A stretch of 62,462 nucleotides of DNA from Bacteroidota bacterium (GTDB lineage Bacteria; Bacteroidota; Bacteroidia; JABDFU01), in NCBI GenBank assembly GCA_013286655.1, contig JABDFG010000009.1:1-62462 (forward strand), in the 5' to 3' direction. Position numbers and translations under genes: made by a program. Of this stretch, positions 41,393 to 61,950 are shown piece after piece. How positions within the stretch are numbered: the stretch's first letter is position 1; every line of letters begins with the position of its first letter. The notes beneath the pieces are model-generated. The model was not told where the DNA came from. It worked only from the letters and a program-made list of their open reading frames with translations, and made no database searches.

Positions 41393-41408
41393 TTGGTAGC
41401 CCGTAGGG
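41393..41408 (-). other. tRNA-Glu 3'-end-like fragment (candidate att scar 2)
   Basis: GTAGCCCGTAGGG at 41396-41408 is identical to 61878-61890, the 3' end of tRNA-Glu. Beyond it the similarity fades (AT.C.ACC). The orientation is the same as in the tRNA. It lies at the left end of the element that carries the integrase at 41718. Confidence 0.5.
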
Positions 41409-41496
41409 CTATACAACCTACTTTCTTACCAACCTCCACATGCTTAAACACCAGTAAAATCAATACTTTTTTATTTTTACTTAGTTCGTGTTTCCC

Positions 41497-41537
41497 CTTC
41501 TTTTCACAATCTTTGTTACTCTATTGTTACTTTGAAA
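41497..41537 (+). repeat. Left copy of the 41-bp imperfect direct repeat
   Basis: The sequence begins CTTCTTTTCACA and ends with a 21-bp core starting TTGTTACTCTATTG (41513-41533). The core is identical to the right copy at 61801-61821, and only four or five bases differ across the rest. It lies about 90 bp inside scar 2 and 181 bp before the integrase gene. It may be an integrase arm site or an att core. Confidence 0.6.
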
Positions 41538-41717: not shown

Positions 41718-42782
41718 ATGAGCGTAATTCTACGAAAAAGGAAAAATCAGGATGGCACTACTTCCCTACTGCTCGACATCTTCCACAACAGCAAACGGCA
41801 GTACGAATTTCTAAAGGAGTTAAAGCTAATCAAACCGCTGACACCATTTGACCGGGAAGAAAACCGGAACCGCCTAAAGTTGGCAGAGCAGATCAAGAAC
41901 AAAAGAGAGCAGCAGTTACAAGGGGACGAGTATGACATAACCCCGGCTTTCAAAAAAAATATTGATTTTGTCCAGTTCTTTGAAAGCTACAATAACAGCT
42001 ATAACAAAAAAGATAAGCGGGTAATGGCAGGGTGTTTTGAGAAATTCAAGGAGTTTATGACTGAAACGGGAATAACCTCATTCACTACCAAGCAAATCAA
42101 TGAAAGCCTTGCAAATGAGTTTAAAGAGTATTTAGAACAAACACTGAACGGGGAAACACCTGCCAATTACTTTAAGAAATTCAAAAAAGTTTTAAAGTAT
42201 GGGGTAAGCAAAAAAATATTTTCTTTCAATCCAGCACAGGAATTAACAGCAAAACGGAATGAATCTATAAAAAAGGAAGTTTTAACCTTTGCCGAAATAC
42301 AACTGCTTGCCGGAACACTATGTACAAATGATGAAGTAAAAAGGGCTTTTCTGTTTTCCTGCCTTTCCGGGCTAAGATTTTGCGATATAAAAGTCCTGCA
42401 ATGGAAGCATATAAACGGGAATGTGTTGAAAATAACCCAGCTAAAAACCAGCAAGCAGGTAACGATCAATCTGAATGAAAATGCTTTGCAGCTTATTGGT
42501 AAAGGCGGAAACAAGGATGAATTAGTCTTTAACCTTCCCTCGCATACTGCCTGCATTAAAGGCTTAAAAGTATGGTGTACTAAAGCCAAGATCAATAAAA
42601 AAATAACCTGGCATTGTGCCCGGCACAGCTTTGCTACGAATATAATTTTTTATGGTAGTGACGTGAATAGCGTAAGTTCCCTGCTCGGTCACAGTTCCTT
42701 AGCCTATACACAGCGATATTTAAGGGTAGTGAATGAGTTGAAAGAAAAAGCGGTTCAGAATTTACCAAATATTAACCTATAA
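41718..42782 (+). CDS. Tyrosine-type site-specific integrase
   Basis: This is a 354-aa phage-integrase-family recombinase of the Bacteroidota type (arm-binding N-terminus, SAM-like core-binding domain at about 85-180, catalytic domain at 185-345). Catalytic residues are R220 (CLSGLRFCDI), Lys about 243-246 (LKTSKQ), H299 and R302 (WHCARHSFAT), H325 (SLLGHSSLAY) and Tyr334 (TQRYLR). All are present, so the enzyme should be active. It lies 310 bp inside the left scar of the element, the usual position for an integrase. Confidence 0.92.
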   Translation: MSVILRKRKNQDGTTSLLLDIFHNSKRQYEFLKELKLIKPLTPFDREENRNRLKLAEQIKNKREQQLQGDEYDITPAFKKNIDFVQFFESYNNSYNKKDKRVMAGCFEKFKEFMTETGITSFTTKQINESLANEFKEYLEQTLNGETPANYFKKFKKVLKYGVSKKIFSFNPAQELTAKRNESIKKEVLTFAEIQLLAGTLCTNDEVKRAFLFSCLSGLRFCDIKVLQWKHINGNVLKITQLKTSKQVTINLNENALQLIGKGGNKDELVFNLPSHTACIKGLKVWCTKAKINKKITWHCARHSFATNIIFYGSDVNSVSSLLGHSSLAYTQRYLRVVNELKEKAVQNLPNINL

Positions 42783-45944: not shown

Positions 45945-47696
45945 ATGAAAGATACTGATTTTAACAATGAATTACAAGCTCCCGTTGAAACCATAACGGC
46001 CAACCTGGATGCTCAGACCTCCAATGATGCCAGTCCTGAAACACCCACAGACGATGCTGTTAATAAGGATCAGAAGGAAACAATTTTCATTAAACCGGGG
46101 GATGACTTCTCCGATGTAATTATCCCGGATGTTTCCGATTCAAGTGAGAATTCCAAGAAGGAAGAATCAGAAAATAGTTCTCCTGATAACGGCTCCTGCG
46201 ATGCTCACACGACTTCTCCTCTAAGTGAAAATGAATTTACTATTGGGATATGGCTTTTCACCATTATCAAAGGAGGGATTGCTAAACTGAAGGGATTTTG
46301 TAGAAGCTGTGTTATCCAAAAGTTTACCGAATACGGCTACTACAAAAGATATCGAGATAAAATGTCTTACATATTTATCAGGGAACAGGACGGTATCATT
46401 GAGGAGACAGAAACGGTCATTGTTAAAGACCTTTTTCACCAGGAGGTTGTTGACATGAAGGAGTCAATGGTTATTTCTCACAATGGTAGCAATGCTGAGG
46501 TATTACCGCAGAAGCTCAAGGAAACATTCTTGAACCAAAGCAACATCATTTTTAACAGGCAATTCCTGGAACATTTACCTAACCATACCAAACCGATCCT
46601 GAAGGATGACAAAACAACGGCTAACTTCTTTTTCCAGAATCAGATTATTATGGTGACTGCAAATGGAATTGACTATGTTGAGTACAGGGACATACTGGAC
46701 TATTGCATCTGGAAGAACCAACAAATTGAACATGTATTCACCTACAATCCTGACAATAAGAACTGCCACTTTGCAAAGTTCGTTAGAAATGTCACAAATA
46801 ATGATCCTTTGCGCTTGGGTGCACTTGTATCTGGCATTGGTTACCAGCTTCACAATTATAACCACCCATCCGGAGGTCAAGCGGTACTTCTTTATGACGA
46901 GGAAATCGCTGATATTAGTTCACCGATGGGCGGCACTGGCAAGGGGTTAATTGGCAATGCTATCGCTGAGATGAGGGAAGTTGTTAAAATTGATGGAAAG
47001 AAATTTAACCCTAAGGACCGGTTCTGTTTTCAGGACATTTCCGACAGCACACAAGTCGTGTTATTTGACGATGCGAAACCAGATCTAGGGTTTGATCGTT
47101 TTCATAGCATACTCACCGATGGTTGGAGTGTTGAGAAAAAACATAAGGATCAGTTTTTTATTAAACCGAAGGACAGCCCCAAAATGCTTATCACCAGCAA
47201 CTCCATCCTCAGCAGTGATGGCAACACTAATAAGAGAAGACAGCATGTTATCGAATTGTCCGACCACTACTCAAAGCAATTTAAGGCGGGAATCAAGGAG
47301 CCTATTAAAAGTGAGCATGGCTGTACCTTCTTTGATGAACAAGATTGGGATGCAGTTGAGTGGAACAAATTCTATTCCTATATGCTTGAGTGTATTCAAT
47401 ACTACTTAGAGTTCGGCCTGCAAGATTACCCGCACGTAAACGTGGAAGAGAACAAATTAAGACAGGCTACCAGCGAGGAATTTTGTGAATGGACAAAAAG
47501 CCAGAATTTTCAGAAAGGCGTGAAATACGGTATCAGTGATTTGTGCCGGGAATTTACCGACATCTATTACGGGAGTTCTTCCAATGACTTTAATCAGCGG
47601 ACATTTAACCAATGGATGAAGAAATTTGCAGCTTCCAGAGAATGGACAATGGAAATTAAAAAAAGTAACAGTTCCAACTTTTGCACCTTTAAATAA
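45945..47696 (+). CDS. SF3-type replicative helicase/ATPase
   Basis: This is a 583-aa replication protein. The first 95 residues are acidic and low in complexity. The ATPase core has Walker A SSPMGGTGKGLIGNAI (about 325-340), Walker B VVLFDDAKPDLGFD (about 371-384) and a sensor KMLITSNSILSSDGNTNKRR with Arg finger candidates. The C-terminal part (EWTKSQNFQKGVKYGISDLC) is a DUF5906/primase-helicase-like tail. The order SSB, helicase, primase suggests that the element replicates autonomously at some stage. Confidence 0.8.
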   Translation: MKDTDFNNELQAPVETITANLDAQTSNDASPETPTDDAVNKDQKETIFIKPGDDFSDVIIPDVSDSSENSKKEESENSSPDNGSCDAHTTSPLSENEFTIGIWLFTIIKGGIAKLKGFCRSCVIQKFTEYGYYKRYRDKMSYIFIREQDGIIEETETVIVKDLFHQEVVDMKESMVISHNGSNAEVLPQKLKETFLNQSNIIFNRQFLEHLPNHTKPILKDDKTTANFFFQNQIIMVTANGIDYVEYRDILDYCIWKNQQIEHVFTYNPDNKNCHFAKFVRNVTNNDPLRLGALVSGIGYQLHNYNHPSGGQAVLLYDEEIADISSPMGGTGKGLIGNAIAEMREVVKIDGKKFNPKDRFCFQDISDSTQVVLFDDAKPDLGFDRFHSILTDGWSVEKKHKDQFFIKPKDSPKMLITSNSILSSDGNTNKRRQHVIELSDHYSKQFKAGIKEPIKSEHGCTFFDEQDWDAVEWNKFYSYMLECIQYYLEFGLQDYPHVNVEENKLRQATSEEFCEWTKSQNFQKGVKYGISDLCREFTDIYYGSSSNDFNQRTFNQWMKKFAASREWTMEIKKSNSSNFCTFK

Positions 47697-47706
47697 ATAG
47701 AAAGGG

Positions 47707-48795
47707 ATGGGAAACAGCCAATTTGATAATAGCCAAGTCCAAAACAGTGACAGAGTGACGGCAGATATTGTAAAGGAGGGTACCCCATTAAATGTATATT
47801 CCAATTTAAATGGGACTCCGCCCGATGAAAATCGCAAGTCAGAAAATATAGGGGTACCCCCTACCATAGTAGGTTCTCGTCACTTCGTCACTTTCTCTGA
47901 CCACTTCGAGGATTCTGTCAGTTGCTTTGCCAACATATTCAGCACTGATCCGCACAACATCACACTAGATAAATGGATTAACGCCTGCACGAACCCACAA
48001 AGTCAGTTCGCGCTTGAACAGAGAGATCTTTGCCTTAAATTCAGGGAAACTGGAAATAAGCAAATAAAGGGAGCAATGCTAGCATTCAGCCCAGGAGCGG
48101 AAATGATCAGTAGGAAAAAAGAACTGAGCGATACGGAAAAGAGATTAAATGTAACCGGCTGGGCCCAGTTCGATATTGATCCCCAACACAATTCTCATAT
48201 AAAGGATTGGGTAAATTTACGGGATCAGGTAAGTAACATCTCCTATGTAGCATTTTGCAGCCTTTCCGCTTCAGGGAAAGGAGTGTGGGGACTGGTTAAA
48301 GTATCCCGTCCTGATAAATACCCGCTACATTTTGAGCAACTTAAACGGGACTTTGCAAGCAGGCGAATAATCTTGGATCCAACCAAAGGAGGGAACCCCA
48401 CAGATCTGAGGATATACAGTTTTGACCCCGATGCGTACGTAGCAGATCAGTTCAGGATTTATGATCGTATTTATAAACCTATGCTACAAAAGGTAAAATC
48501 TTTTAAACAGCACGGAATCAGGGATAATTTCGGGAAGGTTCAAAGCCTAGTAAAAAAGATACAGCTCACTCGTACTGATTTAGCCCCGGATTACTTGACT
48601 TACCTTAGAGTCGGACTGGCACTTGCAACTGAGTTTGGTGAGTCAGGCAGGAGCCTCTTCCATGATGCTTGCTCAGTTAGTCCAAAGTACAAATACCGGG
48701 ATGCTGACAAAGATTTCTCTAGTTGGTTAAAGGCCCATAATGGAAAAATTACTATTAATACCTTTTACTATCTATGTAATTGTAAAATGAACTAG
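47707..48795 (+). CDS. VirE N-terminal/BT4734-like primase with PriCT domain
   Basis: The protein is 362 aa. After a variable N-terminus (about 1-55), the VirE_N/BT4734-like domain runs from about 60 to 245. It has IKGAMLAFSPGAEM, GWAQFDIDPQHNS with acidic metal ligands (FDID), SLSASGKGVWGLVKVSRPDK, and LDPTKGGNPTDLRIYSFDPD. The C-terminal segment YLRVGLALATEFGESGRSLF to FSSWLKAHNGKITINTFYYL is a PriCT_2-type primase domain. It is separated by 10 bp from the helicase gene. Confidence 0.83.
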   Translation: MGNSQFDNSQVQNSDRVTADIVKEGTPLNVYSNLNGTPPDENRKSENIGVPPTIVGSRHFVTFSDHFEDSVSCFANIFSTDPHNITLDKWINACTNPQSQFALEQRDLCLKFRETGNKQIKGAMLAFSPGAEMISRKKELSDTEKRLNVTGWAQFDIDPQHNSHIKDWVNLRDQVSNISYVAFCSLSASGKGVWGLVKVSRPDKYPLHFEQLKRDFASRRIILDPTKGGNPTDLRIYSFDPDAYVADQFRIYDRIYKPMLQKVKSFKQHGIRDNFGKVQSLVKKIQLTRTDLAPDYLTYLRVGLALATEFGESGRSLFHDACSVSPKYKYRDADKDFSSWLKAHNGKITINTFYYLCNCKMN

Positions 48796-48928: not shown

Positions 48929-50608
48929 ATGAGTATTATACATGTTAACCAGATAGCGGGAAAAATCACCCAACTATTTAGGGATAAAATAGATCTTTCT
49001 GATATCACCGATAATGATTCTGAAAAAGAGGTTAAATGCCTTACGCGATCATTAGCGGCTTATGCAATATACAATCATACTGCTTGCTCTTCTGAAGAAG
49101 CAGCTCACTCAATTGTAGATGGCGGGAACGACAATGGCATTGATGCGATTTTTTATTCTGCTGTTTTAAAAGAGTTAATCATTGTTCAATCTAAATGGAT
49201 AAAAACCGGATCCGGAGAACCTGATAGTGGTGAAATACTAAAGTTCTGTTCCGGCATTGAAGATCTTATTAATTTGAATTTTGAACGGTTTAATAGTAAA
49301 GTAAGCAATAGACAGCAAGAGTTTGTAAAAGCAATTTCTGGTTTTGACACAAAGTATGTTGTTATTCTCGCATATACTGGTGACAAAGGAATTGCCGAAC
49401 ATGGTCAAAGAAGAATTGACGACTTATTAAATAAGCTAAATGATGCGGGAGAAGGCCCCATTGAAGAACTAATAAGATTTAAAAAATTTGACCAAGCCAA
49501 AATATACACTAGCCTTTCAAAAGGATTACTTTCGGATCCATTGGATATTGCAGTAGGCCTGCATCAATGGGGAAAATATTCAGAACCATTTGGTGCATAT
49601 TATGGCTATATATCTGGTGAAGAGATCGCAAAATTGTGGAATGAAAGTGGCAGAAAACTCTTTCATAAAAACATTAGAAACGTATTGGGTAAAACAGATG
49701 TTAATGACGAACTTCAGGCGACCATTCAAAATAATCCTGAAAAATTTTGGTATTTCAACAATGGCATAACAATTATTTCTGACACTATTGAAAAATCAAT
49801 GATTGGAGGTACTAACAATGATCTTGGAAGTTTTAAGTTGAGCAATGCCTCAATAGTCAATGGCGCTCAAACAATAAGTTCAATCGGTGAAACCGCCTCC
49901 AAATTTCCAGAACAAATAAAGAGAATATTTGTTCTGGCTAGGTGTATAAGTCTTCAAAATACTCCTCCTGAATTTGGCAATGAGGTAACAAAAAGTAATA
50001 ATAGACAAAATAGAATCGAGAACAGAGATTTCGTTTCTCAGGATCCCGAACAAAATAGAATACGAGAAGAGTTAGCGCATGATGCAATAAATTATATTAT
50101 TGCAAGGTCTGATCAATTTGTTATATCAAAATCCTCATTTGAGGTAGAAGAAGCTACCATTAGTTTAGCGTGTGCTTCCGGCCAGGTTTCTTTAACCGTG
50201 CAGGCTAAGCGAGAATTAGGTAAATTCTATGAAAATCTTGCGAAAGGTATATACAAACAAATATTTAATCCTTCTACAACAGGCAGGTATCTTTTTAATT
50301 GTATTCAAATTAATAGAGAAGTGGAAAGATTAATCGCTCTAAAAATTGACACCTTGGATAGAAGAAGCGGGAAGGAATACGGAATTCTTGTTCATGGAAA
50401 CAGAATGATAAGTAGTTTTGTGTTTCAAAAAATTAAACTGTCAAATTCTGACATATTAAATATTGAAAACTTGAATTTAGATCAATATTTCCAGGAAGTT
50501 TTAATTAAAATAACAACTGCCATTAATTCGAATTTTGCTGACAATTTCCTTGCTACCTTATTTAAGAACAAAACTAAATGTGATATATTACAACGTATGT
50601 GCCAATAA
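48929..50608 (+). CDS. AIPR-family protein (phage-resistance nuclease-like)
   Basis: This is a 559-aa AIPR protein. The N-terminal PD-(D/E)xK-like motif is DGGNDNGIDAIFYSAVLK with ELIIVQSKWIK (D72, Q87, K89). The AIPR core includes KNIRNVLGKTDVNDELQATI, NPEKFWYFNNGITIISDT, NASIVNGAQTISSI and RENGR-like NNRQNRIENRDFVSQDPEQN. AIPR proteins were named for abortive infection systems and are mostly of unknown mechanism. It is the only defence-type gene clearly on this element. A CCATATGG palindrome (48870-48877) lies 50 bp upstream of its start and might control it. A 15-bp-arm hairpin follows. Confidence 0.85.
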   Translation: MSIIHVNQIAGKITQLFRDKIDLSDITDNDSEKEVKCLTRSLAAYAIYNHTACSSEEAAHSIVDGGNDNGIDAIFYSAVLKELIIVQSKWIKTGSGEPDSGEILKFCSGIEDLINLNFERFNSKVSNRQQEFVKAISGFDTKYVVILAYTGDKGIAEHGQRRIDDLLNKLNDAGEGPIEELIRFKKFDQAKIYTSLSKGLLSDPLDIAVGLHQWGKYSEPFGAYYGYISGEEIAKLWNESGRKLFHKNIRNVLGKTDVNDELQATIQNNPEKFWYFNNGITIISDTIEKSMIGGTNNDLGSFKLSNASIVNGAQTISSIGETASKFPEQIKRIFVLARCISLQNTPPEFGNEVTKSNNRQNRIENRDFVSQDPEQNRIREELAHDAINYIIARSDQFVISKSSFEVEEATISLACASGQVSLTVQAKRELGKFYENLAKGIYKQIFNPSTTGRYLFNCIQINREVERLIALKIDTLDRRSGKEYGILVHGNRMISSFVFQKIKLSNSDILNIENLNLDQYFQEVLIKITTAINSNFADNFLATLFKNKTKCDILQRMCQ

Positions 50609-54486: not shown

Positions 54487-54828
54487 CTATGCTACTGGTT
54501 TTTCTCCTTCAAACACATGCTCCTCCAAGGTCTGAGAGACAGGATTGTAGGCATAGGTATAATTTAATTCAACTGTTTCTCCATTCGGAATTGTGTACTG
54601 ATAAGGTTCACATTCCTTCTTTTCAATTATTCCGGGCAACGATGAGCCAATTAAACTTTTGCATGTTTCCTCGTCAAAAGGGGAAACCATATTACACCGA
54701 CGAGCTGTTAAATAAGCTTTACCCGTTGCTTTGGAAATTCCCGCTTCTACGCCTCCCAATAATGATAAGGTAAAAAACGTCTCTCCGTTTGTTTTAGTTC
54801 GTTTGTTGTAACCTGTGATCTTAATCAT
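54487..54828 (-). CDS. Conserved-looking element protein, 113 aa
   Basis: The protein is beta-rich (GETFFTLSLLGGVEAGISKA, YLTARRCNMVSPFDEETCKS, and the end YNPVSQTLEEHVFEGEKPV). The sequence has two Cys and no membrane segment. It begins the minus-strand chain that runs through the DUF6876-like gene. The family is not recognised. Confidence 0.5.
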   Translation of the reverse strand: MIKITGYNKRTKTNGETFFTLSLLGGVEAGISKATGKAYLTARRCNMVSPFDEETCKSLIGSSLPGIIEKKECEPYQYTIPNGETVELNYTYAYNPVSQTLEEHVFEGEKPVA

Positions 54829-54960
54829 TGTTTTAAGTTTTTAGTTAGTACTGATTCGATGAGTCTATCTCATCAGGTTTAATGGAGGGGTGTATCATTT
54901 TATAAACATTTTTATTTAAACTTCTGGGATTTAAACTTTCTGAGTTTAACTCTTTGTCTT

Positions 54961-55330
54961 GAGGCATGCCGTTTGCGAGTGGAGTCACTGGTGGGAGCAT
55001 TGAAACCATGACTTTGTCAGGGTGGATGCGACCTGCTATGCAAGGGCTTTACCTTAGAAATCAAAGGCAAGAAGAAAGCCCGCAGCCAGGGACGACCGCA
55101 GGCATGCAAGAATCGAATTTTGGCGGAATATTTTGCTTCAGCAAAAGATTGGGTAGCCAAAAATGAGCGAAGACAGGTGAGTGAAAATCATGACAAGGCT
55201 GACGAAGGAAGGCTTGGCGTGTATTTTTGTGCGATCCTGTCTGAGTGAATACCTTTTTACCTGGTACAATCAAAGGTGACGATGGGGTGTAAGATGGTTC
55301 AGGCGGGAAGCATGTGGGGCAAGTGGTGGA
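54961..55330. ncRNA. Candidate large structured RNA or conserved non-coding element
   Basis: This gene-free stretch is clearly richer in GC than its surroundings. It contains several helices. GGGCTTT (55044-55050) pairs with AAAGCCC (55075-55081), with an inner CCTT/AAGG. TTTTGC-TTCA-GCAAAA is at 55131-55146. AGACAGG (55171-55177) pairs with CCTGTCT (55236-55242). The frames across it (54966-55166 plus, 55061-55273 minus) have no protein-like features and overlap each other. Strand and function are not known; oriT or a large ornate RNA are the main alternatives. Confidence 0.45.
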
Positions 55331-55717
55331 GAGTTAGCCCTAAGAAATGATTTCTCTCATTGAAAAAAATTCTTTTATAGGGACTGCCTAATAGGTGAAT
55401 TTCTTAATATAAAAGGTACGGGGAGATGTTGAGAAAAGCTAATGCCGGGGAGGATTTTCGTGGGACCCATGTTTGAGTTCAACACCTATAAAAATTTCAG
55501 CCGAAAAATTCAGGTCTCTATACAATTCAATCTGTCTTACATCTACCCAAATGGAAAGGTTGACAACGTATTTGCCAAAATTATCATTTTACTCCATCTA
55601 TAATTAACTTCTCTCCTTCACAGCAAAAAAGAAATTCTGAATTTCGTGAATAAAGTGCATGTTCCTAGAAGCTGTTATGAAATGAATTACTGACTTGTAT
55701 TATCTGCTTTAGTAAAT
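55331..55717. other. Gene-free stretch after the candidate RNA
   Basis: No convincing frame is seen. It contains TAGGGACTGCC and TACGGGGAGATG near the left edge, which might still belong to the structured element, and otherwise AT-rich sequence leading to the end of the 55718 gene. Confidence 0.4.
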
Positions 55718-56269
55718 CTATTTTGTATGGCTTGAATATGTTTTAAGCCAAAAATAAACGTAAGTACTATCACCATTTTTGCTTCTTGAAATAGTATTCG
55801 GTGGCGTATCCGTATCAAAGAAAAAATTAATTTCATTTTTAAAAGGAACAAAACTATAGGGTTTAATTTTTATAGTATCTGAGGAGGAAAAACCTGCGTA
55901 GACTTTCTTTTTTGAATAAACAACATTTGTGATTATTAAAGGGTAACTGGTATAGTTTATTACCAGGTATTTGTCCCCTGCAATGTCACTAATATTAAAT
56001 TTTACATTAACATTATCAGCTTCTATTCTCATTTCTTTATCCCCTAAAACAGTAGATTCTCTGTAAAATATTTTATTGTCTTCGTCTAATTTAACTTCAA
56101 GTATTGTATAAGTATTGGGATTTAAAACAATTGCAATCGCAACATAACTCAATATTAACAATAGTCCGCTGAAAAATTTATTGAATTTGAAAAAATAAAC
56201 AATAATGCATACAAAAATGAATGGAATCAAAATTTCAAGAGAAACAAATAAACTATGGTTGAATAACAT
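55718..56269 (-). CDS. Hypothetical membrane protein
   Basis: The protein is 183 aa with two N-terminal membrane helices (EILIPFIFVCIIVYFFKFNK and FSGLLLILSYVAIAIVLNP). A beta-rich extracytoplasmic domain follows (FNISDIAGDKYLVINYTSYP, DTIKIKPYSFVPFKNEINFF). No family is recognised. It is 14 bp downstream of the DUF4145 gene, so the two may be co-transcribed. Confidence 0.55.
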   Translation of the reverse strand: MLFNHSLFVSLEILIPFIFVCIIVYFFKFNKFFSGLLLILSYVAIAIVLNPNTYTILEVKLDEDNKIFYRESTVLGDKEMRIEADNVNVKFNISDIAGDKYLVINYTSYPLIITNVVYSKKKVYAGFSSSDTIKIKPYSFVPFKNEINFFFDTDTPPNTISRSKNGDSTYVYFWLKTYSSHTK

Positions 56270-56283
56270 GAAAATAAATATTT

Positions 56284-56910
56284 TTAATTATCACGTTTAT
56301 CTATTCCTTTTTTCTTATCCGCCGGCAAACTTGAATATATGCCACTTACCTTCTTCGGTAGAGCTATCATATATTCAACAATTATATTTAATAAATCGAA
56401 TAGCTGCCCTACTGTCTCTGGATTGTCGGTATCAATTTGACCCGGATGAACTGCATCATTACCCGTAACCCGAACTATATCTAATGATTGCTGTACAATT
56501 TCAGGAAGACCTTTTTGTACTAAATTTCCTATGTCATCATTAATATTATTCCCTGGTTCTCCTAATTCCTTGCACAAAACCTGAATTGATAACCTAAGCA
56601 AAGCTGCTGCACCGCGGGGTGATTTAGAATGAATAGAGGCTGCTTCATAGTATAATTTTAATGCAGAATCAGGCATTTCAGGGTTAGGGAAAGGGGCATT
56701 TCCATTATCTGGAAAATACATTTTATCCTGAATCCATAAAGTTGGTTGAGAACAGTGTTGACATCTTCCAACTCTTATCGGATTTCCAACAGTCGGGCCA
56801 TTTACCATATTTCCATCCCAATTTTTATACCACCAATCTTGTTTTGCTATTGCCCCACAACTAGGACACGTAAATGAAGTGCCAAAAACTACGGGTTGAA
56901 TATATTTCAT
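56284..56910 (-). CDS. DUF4145 domain protein with N-terminal zinc ribbon
   Basis: The protein is 208 aa. The N-terminal CxxC pairs are FTCPSCGAIAKQDWW (about residues 14-28) and RVGRCQHCSQPTLW (about 48-61). The DUF4145 helical region is LKLYYEAASIHSKSPRGAAA, LLRLSIQVLCKELGEPG, NLVQKGLPEIVQQSLDIVR and GNDAVHPGQIDTDNPETVGQ. DUF4145 occurs in restriction- and defence-linked proteins, but its activity is unknown. Confidence 0.82.
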   Translation of the reverse strand: MKYIQPVVFGTSFTCPSCGAIAKQDWWYKNWDGNMVNGPTVGNPIRVGRCQHCSQPTLWIQDKMYFPDNGNAPFPNPEMPDSALKLYYEAASIHSKSPRGAAALLRLSIQVLCKELGEPGNNINDDIGNLVQKGLPEIVQQSLDIVRVTGNDAVHPGQIDTDNPETVGQLFDLLNIIVEYMIALPKKVSGIYSSLPADKKKGIDKRDN

Positions 56911-61784: not shown

Positions 61785-61825
61785 CTTCTTTTCACACTTC
61801 TTGTTACTCTATTGTTACTTTAAAA
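61785..61825 (+). repeat. Right copy of the 41-bp imperfect direct repeat
   Basis: It begins CTTCTTTTCACA at 61785 and contains the 21-bp core at 61801-61821, identical to 41513-41533. It is 53 bp from the tRNA-Glu 3' end and in the same orientation as the left copy. Confidence 0.6.
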
Positions 61826-61860: not shown

Positions 61861-61878
61861 ATTATAGCGATTGTTTTG

Positions 61879-61950
61879 TAGCCCGTAGGGGAATCGAACC
61901 CCTGTTACCAGAATGAAAATCTGGTGTCCTAACCCCTAGACGAACGGGCC
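61879..61950 (-). tRNA. tRNA-Glu (anticodon TTC)
   Basis: The minus strand reads GGCCCGTTCGTCTAGGGG at the 5' end. It has the anticodon arm CCAGA-TTTTCAT-TCTGG with anticodon TTC, and the T-arm AGGGG-TTCGATT-CCCCT. The acceptor stem GGCCCGT pairs with ACGGGCT, with discriminator A at 61879. No CCA is encoded. It is the insertion site of the element whose right end is just downstream of its 3' end. Confidence 0.93.

Follow-up and report, generated by a model that had tools for sequence, protein, structure and literature searches.

The window, the whole stretch of 62,462 nucleotides from a Bacteroidota bacterium that was analysed, likely contains an integrative element of about 20 kb (41497-61825), with a 41-bp direct repeat at its boundaries (41497-41537 and 61785-61825, 90% identical) and a tRNA-Glu gene (61878-61950) adjoining one end. 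On its + strand the element carries a tyrosine integrase gene (41718-42782; Pfam Phage_integrase, 1.2e-18) and replication genes assigned by domain scans to a DUF5906 helicase-like protein and a PriCT_2/primase-like protein (45945-48795). Bro-N, single-strand-binding-like, radC and DUF6876 proteins are also encoded, as are the defence proteins AbiU (48929-50605, E 1.8e-38) and PD-T7-4 (56284-56910, E 9.2e-81). The integrase, DUF5906 and PriCT_2, with tRNA-Glu beside one end, are among the features of a P4-like satellite, and the host island is likely to be one, although the scans named no capsid-hijacking gene and it has no known helper phage. A 26-base stretch at the tRNA-Glu 3' end (61875-61900) recurs with 81% identity at 41393-41418; this second copy falls within an ORF to the left of the integrase gene, in an order opposite to that of the 41-bp repeats, and the pair is perhaps the remnant of another insertion.

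Between minus-strand genes for a 113-aa protein (54487-54828) and a 183-aa protein (55718-56269) lies, at 54955-55495 on the + strand, what is almost certainly the gene for a conserved structured noncoding RNA, large at about 540 nt, with approximate ends. The 113-aa gene is divergent from the RNA and heads a 113-aa/DUF6876 gene row; homologues of its protein occur in 5 of 148 other genomes. At the corresponding position of the same row in a genome of the same genus, G005 (L010), the RNA is missing. The 113-aa gene is preceded by TTTAAAC-type repeats (54899-54954), common to L010 and partly to G067, that are likely the operator or promoter of the row. The original prediction had proposed a large structured RNA in a GC-rich, gene-free segment at 54961-55330, next to radC. 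The RNA proved real, but it ends about 165 nt further on, near 55495. The rise in G+C is likewise real but modest, with 44-47% in 300-base windows over 54900-55349 and mostly about 26-41% in neighbouring ones; over the same interval the + strand shows a strong G skew of 0.20-0.34. radC is present in the window but about 3.6 kb away, so that the link is loose; a radC fragment adjoins the copy of the RNA in genome G468, and at the other RNA loci the look for radC covered just the ORFs named here.

The extent of the RNA was set by covariance-model matches at 54965-55106 and 55107-55244 and by blastn homology at 55350-55497. Helix P1 would be formed by the 5' arm GCATGCC (54964-54970), which is followed by a GTTT loop and GCG (54975-54977), and the 3' arm GGCATGC (55101-55107), which is preceded by CGC (55097-55099) and a single A (55100). 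Inside it, P1b pairs GTCACTGG (54984-54991) with CCAGGGAC (55086-55093), with both-side changes in 5/8 pairs between the window and C6, the first of two copies in G005. P2 (TTTTGGC/GCCAAAA, 55118-55162) has a conserved internal loop and an apical hairpin TTTTGC/GCAAAA (55131-55146); both-side changes were found in 7/10 pairs, and every cell was paired. P3 (55171-55242) consists of a lower stem AGACAGG/CCTGTCT (55171-55177/55236-55242), AAAAT/ATTTT, a single-base bulge at 55222 and CATG/CGTG. All three helices noticed originally are present: the second and third are parts of P2 and P3, and the first, GGGCTTT/AAAGCCC (55044-55081, arms 55044-55050/55075-55081), lies inside the P1 domain. The window's fit there is uncertain, as is the equivalence of this hairpin, matched by eye, to CCTGTT/GACAGG of C6. 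On the 3' side of P3 follows a conserved linker (55251-55261; ACCTTTTTACC in the window, elsewhere e.g. ACCTTATTTCC) that is visible in 8/8 copies. The 3' domain (55350-55497), which includes GGACTGCCTAATAGGT (55381-55396) and AATGCCGGGG (55441-55450), is the most conserved portion in sequence, as seen by blastn against G005. A 9-bp inverted repeat (55373/55485) was considered as an enclosing helix and rejected; by reading, it is missing in C6. The copies in relatives seem to be of comparable size, about 480-600 nt, where the 3' part is retained.

Within the genus, blastn against the fetched loci matched 55350-55497 to C6 with 66% identity (E 1.3e-11), and by reading the correspondence extends over the whole RNA region. 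The second G005 copy, on C121, is 92% and 87% identical to C6 across its two halves. These are separated by an IS3-type transposon (about 1262-2600 of L036) with rve and HTH_Tnp_1 ORFs and inverted ends; by reading of the junctions, the 3-base target AAG was duplicated. The RNA is present in 2/6 genomes of the genus, the remaining genomes being mostly incomplete. Two covariance models were built from C6 and C121 only, excluding the window: R1 (P2 and P3, 29 pairs) and R2 (P1 domain, 31 pairs). R1 matched the window at 55107-55244 (41.4 bits, E 1.5e-8), the next-best match elsewhere in 77.5 kb reaching 9.7 bits. R2 matched at 54965-55106 (33.9 bits, E 4.1e-7), and up to E 10 nothing else in 77.5 kb was found except its own training copies. 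The two matches abut at 55106/55107. When C6 and C121 were used for profiles of sequence alone, the scores were 15.0 bits (E 7.7e-4) for the R1 region and 2.0 bits (E 7.6) for the R2 region.

Both-side changes between the window and G005 occurred in 25/60 pairs (11/29 in R1 and 14/31 in R2), counts that in effect compare two lineages since C6 and C121 are alike. Paired cells amounted to 95.3% (R1) and 97.8% (R2); none of 500 shuffles reached any of the pairing measures, and partners slid by 1-3 columns paired in just 24-52% of cells. The alignments behind the pair counts were fitted to the models, a flaw of which the search E-values are free; the structures had been drawn after viewing the window and the G005 copies and are thus not wholly independent of the window. 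The model helices were also found in the minimum-energy fold of a G005 copy. Taken together, the comparisons demonstrate selection for structure on an RNA whose fold would comprise a P1 domain, P2 and P3.

A third covariance model, R3, built from three sequences, was run over 395 genomes of the class. Beyond the known copies its matches were weak and at chance level. The match in G299 scored 26.2 bits with the P3 motif intact, and its E of 0.0025 per genome means that about one such match is expected by chance over 395 genomes. With the G299 region as blastn query against 150 relatives, one copy was obtained in G468 (E 1.4e-26) and a pair in G483 (E 3.9e-9); G554 emerged when a G483 copy was run against the 147 genomes belonging to its genus. 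The G468, G483 and G554 copies were thus obtained without selection by R3, which scores the second-family copies at 20.7-26.2 bits (25.6-25.8 bits for G483). In total, 8 copies are known from 6 genomes: the window genome, G005 (two), G299, G468, G483 (two) and G554.

The five second-family copies represent another family (f35) of the same class and share with the window RNA the P1 helix, the bulged P3 stem and the linker. R2 found no match in the second family, and the 3' third, including the 3' domain, could not be aligned between it and the window's genus. When the five copies were aligned by sequence and folded with RNAalifold, P1 (GCCAC/GTGGC, loop, GCC/GGC) and P3 (lower stem, AAAAAC/GTTTTT, single-base bulge, CATG/CGTG) were both recovered, P3 thereby independently from five other sequences, with 26/75 compensated pairs. 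In the eight-copy alignment, which was fitted to the model, 93.9% of 213 cells were paired and 19/29 pairs had both-side changes. The P1 geometry is kept in 8/8 copies, with several differing arm sequences, and was found in 29/2400 shuffles; the scan was tuned to the known geometry, so that 8/8 arises by construction and the shuffle rate is the informative figure. Because of the common P1, P3 and linker and the scores of the G483 copies, the RNAs of the two families are very probably homologous. Judged by these alignments, the RNA is kept in shape, hardly in sequence, among related bacteria. The original prediction had called for covariation across at least ten homologues: both-side changes were found, but the copies number eight.

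The first ~390 nt of the two G483 copies (L173 and L174) share 92% identity, but their 3' thirds are dissimilar, so the pair looks modular. Decay seems to have affected at least two copies, C121 through the insertion and G468, which ends in gene fragments. Further searches added little. Blastn of the G554 RNA over the 395 class genomes returned only G299 and one weak place in G318, R2, run over 38 genomes, added a weak place in G020 to the G005 copies and nothing else, and a pattern scan of genome contigs returned G005 again and otherwise three unrelated matches. Such absences are weak, since R1 and R2 both missed the window's own genome in the first pass of the genome search; several of the genomes, moreover, are MAGs and incomplete. 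Among the candidates set aside were a weak R3 match in the window's genome that overlaps a gene end (L142, 24.8 bits), two pattern matches read as chance (L017 and L020) and other R1 or R3 matches scoring no more than about 25 bits. R2 detected no P1 domain in any of these last, a rejection that is itself weak because R2 failed on G299 too.

At gathering thresholds, Rfam 15 recognised only tRNAs in the window and seven loci, and permissive thresholds gave chance matches or none. Its library includes models of GOLLD, ROOL, OLE, introns and tmRNA. The covariance-model check proposed with the original prediction was thus run, and no catalogued family matches. Searches of IMG/VR with seven exact sequence patterns revealed no homologue, the matches of three patterns being judged chance. 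Blastn against phage records found no homologue, six weak matches covering 5% of the query at the 3' end, and plasmid blastn returned nothing of use. A 14-mer of the 3' domain, ACTGCCTAATAGGT, occurs in phage contigs; R1 gave no confirmation there, and by reading the hits include tmRNA genes. Such phage tmRNA genes with ACTGCCTAATAGGT were seen in viral contigs L087, L093, L095, L096, L100, L108 and similar ones and were taken as chance. No description of such an RNA was recognised in open-access full texts, subscription journals lying largely outside this scope. The RNA is new to Rfam 15 and may be new to print, where candidate lists such as that of PMC8040213 also exist.

With regard to the strand, single-sequence folding energies are not decisive: they are by themselves no proof of a structured RNA, and in the window they favour the minus strand (z -3.09, 0/100 shuffles equally good) over the + strand (z -1.66, 9/100). 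R1 and R2 matched the window on the + strand only. G-U pairs, tallied from printed tables, make up 16/213 cells of the eight-copy alignment and 5/93 cells of the P1-domain alignment; as + strand G-U pairs are impossible on the opposite strand, they point to an RNA read from the + strand. MAFFT alignment and RNAalifold folding of three full-length copies gave -62.3 kcal/mol for the + strand versus -45.7 kcal/mol for the other, the middle of this alignment being misaligned.

For 6/8 copies, tyrosine-integrase genes or fragments are found close by or in the same island, and four of these six islands are at or near a tRNA gene. In G554 the order is tRNA-Pro, integrase, D5-type primase, DUF5131 and then the RNA, which again combines an integrase at a tRNA gene with a D5/primase-type replication protein as in P4-like satellites. 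In G299, tRNA-Ala, integrase and an HNH/NUMOD-type endonuclease (by reading) precede the RNA, and in G468 the order is radC fragment, RNA, integrase-like fragment (called by eye from its likeness to the G299 integrase) and tRNA-Ala. Contig C9 of G483 encodes a Phage_integrase protein plus a second recombinase-like ORF, and on C6 an integrase lies about 3 kb from the RNA. For C121, a 3.3-kb contig, and for G483 C2, the sequence read showed no integrase. No neighbour gene is common to all copies; the sole sharing is a 125/97-aa protein upstream of both G483 copies.

These contexts suggest a standalone RNA, predicted to be transcribed from the + strand and about 540 nt long in the window. The absence of a common neighbour gene and the divergent gene on the 5' side argue for action in trans, not as the leader of one gene, and a standalone, trans-acting RNA appears quite probable. 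With the recurring integrase link and no common neighbour, a trans-acting role for the island is the simplest account. The RNA might serve the island's life cycle, in maintenance, induction or a contest with phage or host, conceivably as an RNA or RNA-protein scaffold of the kind thought of for GOLLD and ROOL; by this analogy, a scaffold-type function for the island is tentative. As a whole, a standalone large ncRNA gene that is linked to islands and acts in trans, perhaps as a scaffold, is a reasonably likely reading.

One alternative, a small protein gene or its remnant, can draw on the one open frame of about 44-104 codons that each copy holds and on a part of the second family that is readable as a peptide, GKTMT...WRVFL. 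Against it, mismatches are even over codon positions 0/1/2 (11/11/9 between G483a and b, 20/14/20 between C6 and C121, 26/33/34 between G299 and G554), 12/13 gaps are not multiples of three and stops occur in every frame. This pattern rules out a coding gene or pseudogene and bears out the original observation of no protein-like frame. The frames overlapping the segment, which had been called spurious (66 aa and 78 codons on +, 70 aa on -), match no Pfam family, the best value of 0.073 being chance; the probability of a protein gene is virtually negligible. An oriT, the second possibility raised originally, or some different site that acts as DNA and folds as a single strand, would suit a hairpin-forming segment inside an integrative element. 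It was not borne out: about 540 nt of covarying domains far exceed a nick region, the kept + strand G-U pairs point to RNA, and Pfam scans of 20 window ORFs revealed no relaxase or transfer gene, which makes such a site highly improbable. The suggestion of a new large ncRNA class, by comparison, has stood up, with covariation among homologues and neither an Rfam match nor a coding signal.

Among RNA-level explanations, a cis-acting or antisense regulator similar to those of P4-type satellites, controlling the divergent gene row or another gene of the element, is suggested by the adjoining operator-like repeats upstream of the 113-aa/DUF6876 row, and such ncRNAs are known in phage satellites (excerpts of PMC7567579). 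However, neighbour genes vary between copies, the G005 row has no RNA at that place, and the size and many-helix fold go beyond antisense needs, so we consider this regulator unlikely. The dispersed copies (two each in G005 and G483) with unrelated flanks, and the conserved internal loops and bulge, would also fit a self-splicing or self-cleaving RNA, a ribozyme or intron derivative moving with the islands; as Rfam, introns and ribozymes included, gave no match even at permissive thresholds, and no homing or reverse-transcriptase ORF lies inside (the sole insert being the IS3-type transposon), this origin seems quite unlikely. Finally, the RNA could be a component of anti-phage defence borne by the island, lying as it does between core and defence genes of an element with AbiU and PD-T7-4. 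No defence protein was recognised among the ORFs read beside the other copies (the PADLOC scan covered window proteins), and neither a reverse transcriptase nor a toxin gene was evident as a partner of the RNA; a defence role is very unlikely. The trans-acting, island-linked RNA gene is retained as the preferred reading. In its boldest form, the RNA would be a new large ornate class, unrelated to GOLLD, ROOL and OLE, that is a functional component recurring among the satellite-like integrative islands of the window's Bacteroidota class, acting in trans as an RNA-only or RNA-protein assembly or a ribozyme, a possibility that falls somewhat short of an even chance.

Group I and II introns and known ribozymes are likewise large folded RNAs of mobile DNA; they differ in that no permissive Rfam match and no intron-encoded protein accompany the RNA described here. 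OLE shares the character of a large, structured, standalone bacterial RNA; it is described from Gram-positive extremophiles (PMC11332333), and our RNA has no Rfam match. Phage satellites have regulatory ncRNAs, and those of PLE and P4 type are, similarly, noncoding transcripts of satellite elements, but in the same excerpts they are tied to leader complementarity or terminal inverted repeats (PMC7567579), where a large fold is found here. According to the excerpted PMC12286853, GOLLD and ROOL are large standalone phage RNAs of hundreds of nucleotides and many helices, function unknown, on mobile elements and often near tRNA genes or islands, and with OLE they form RNA-only complexes. In these respects the RNA is of the same type, a large standalone multi-domain RNA of a mobile element. 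Unlike it, GOLLD and ROOL occur in phages or prophages, whereas neither IMG/VR patterns nor phage blastn found our RNA; their covariance models do not match it. Oligomeric cages are a further feature of GOLLD and ROOL. By analogy they appear nearest in kind, membership in either being unsupported by Rfam models. Few large structured bacterial RNAs that lack an assigned function are known, and those studied have proved surprising. A further such class, so far unseen in phages and residing on Bacteroidota islands, would provide an independent system for why mobile elements carry large RNAs, and its structure model makes the RNA directly testable.
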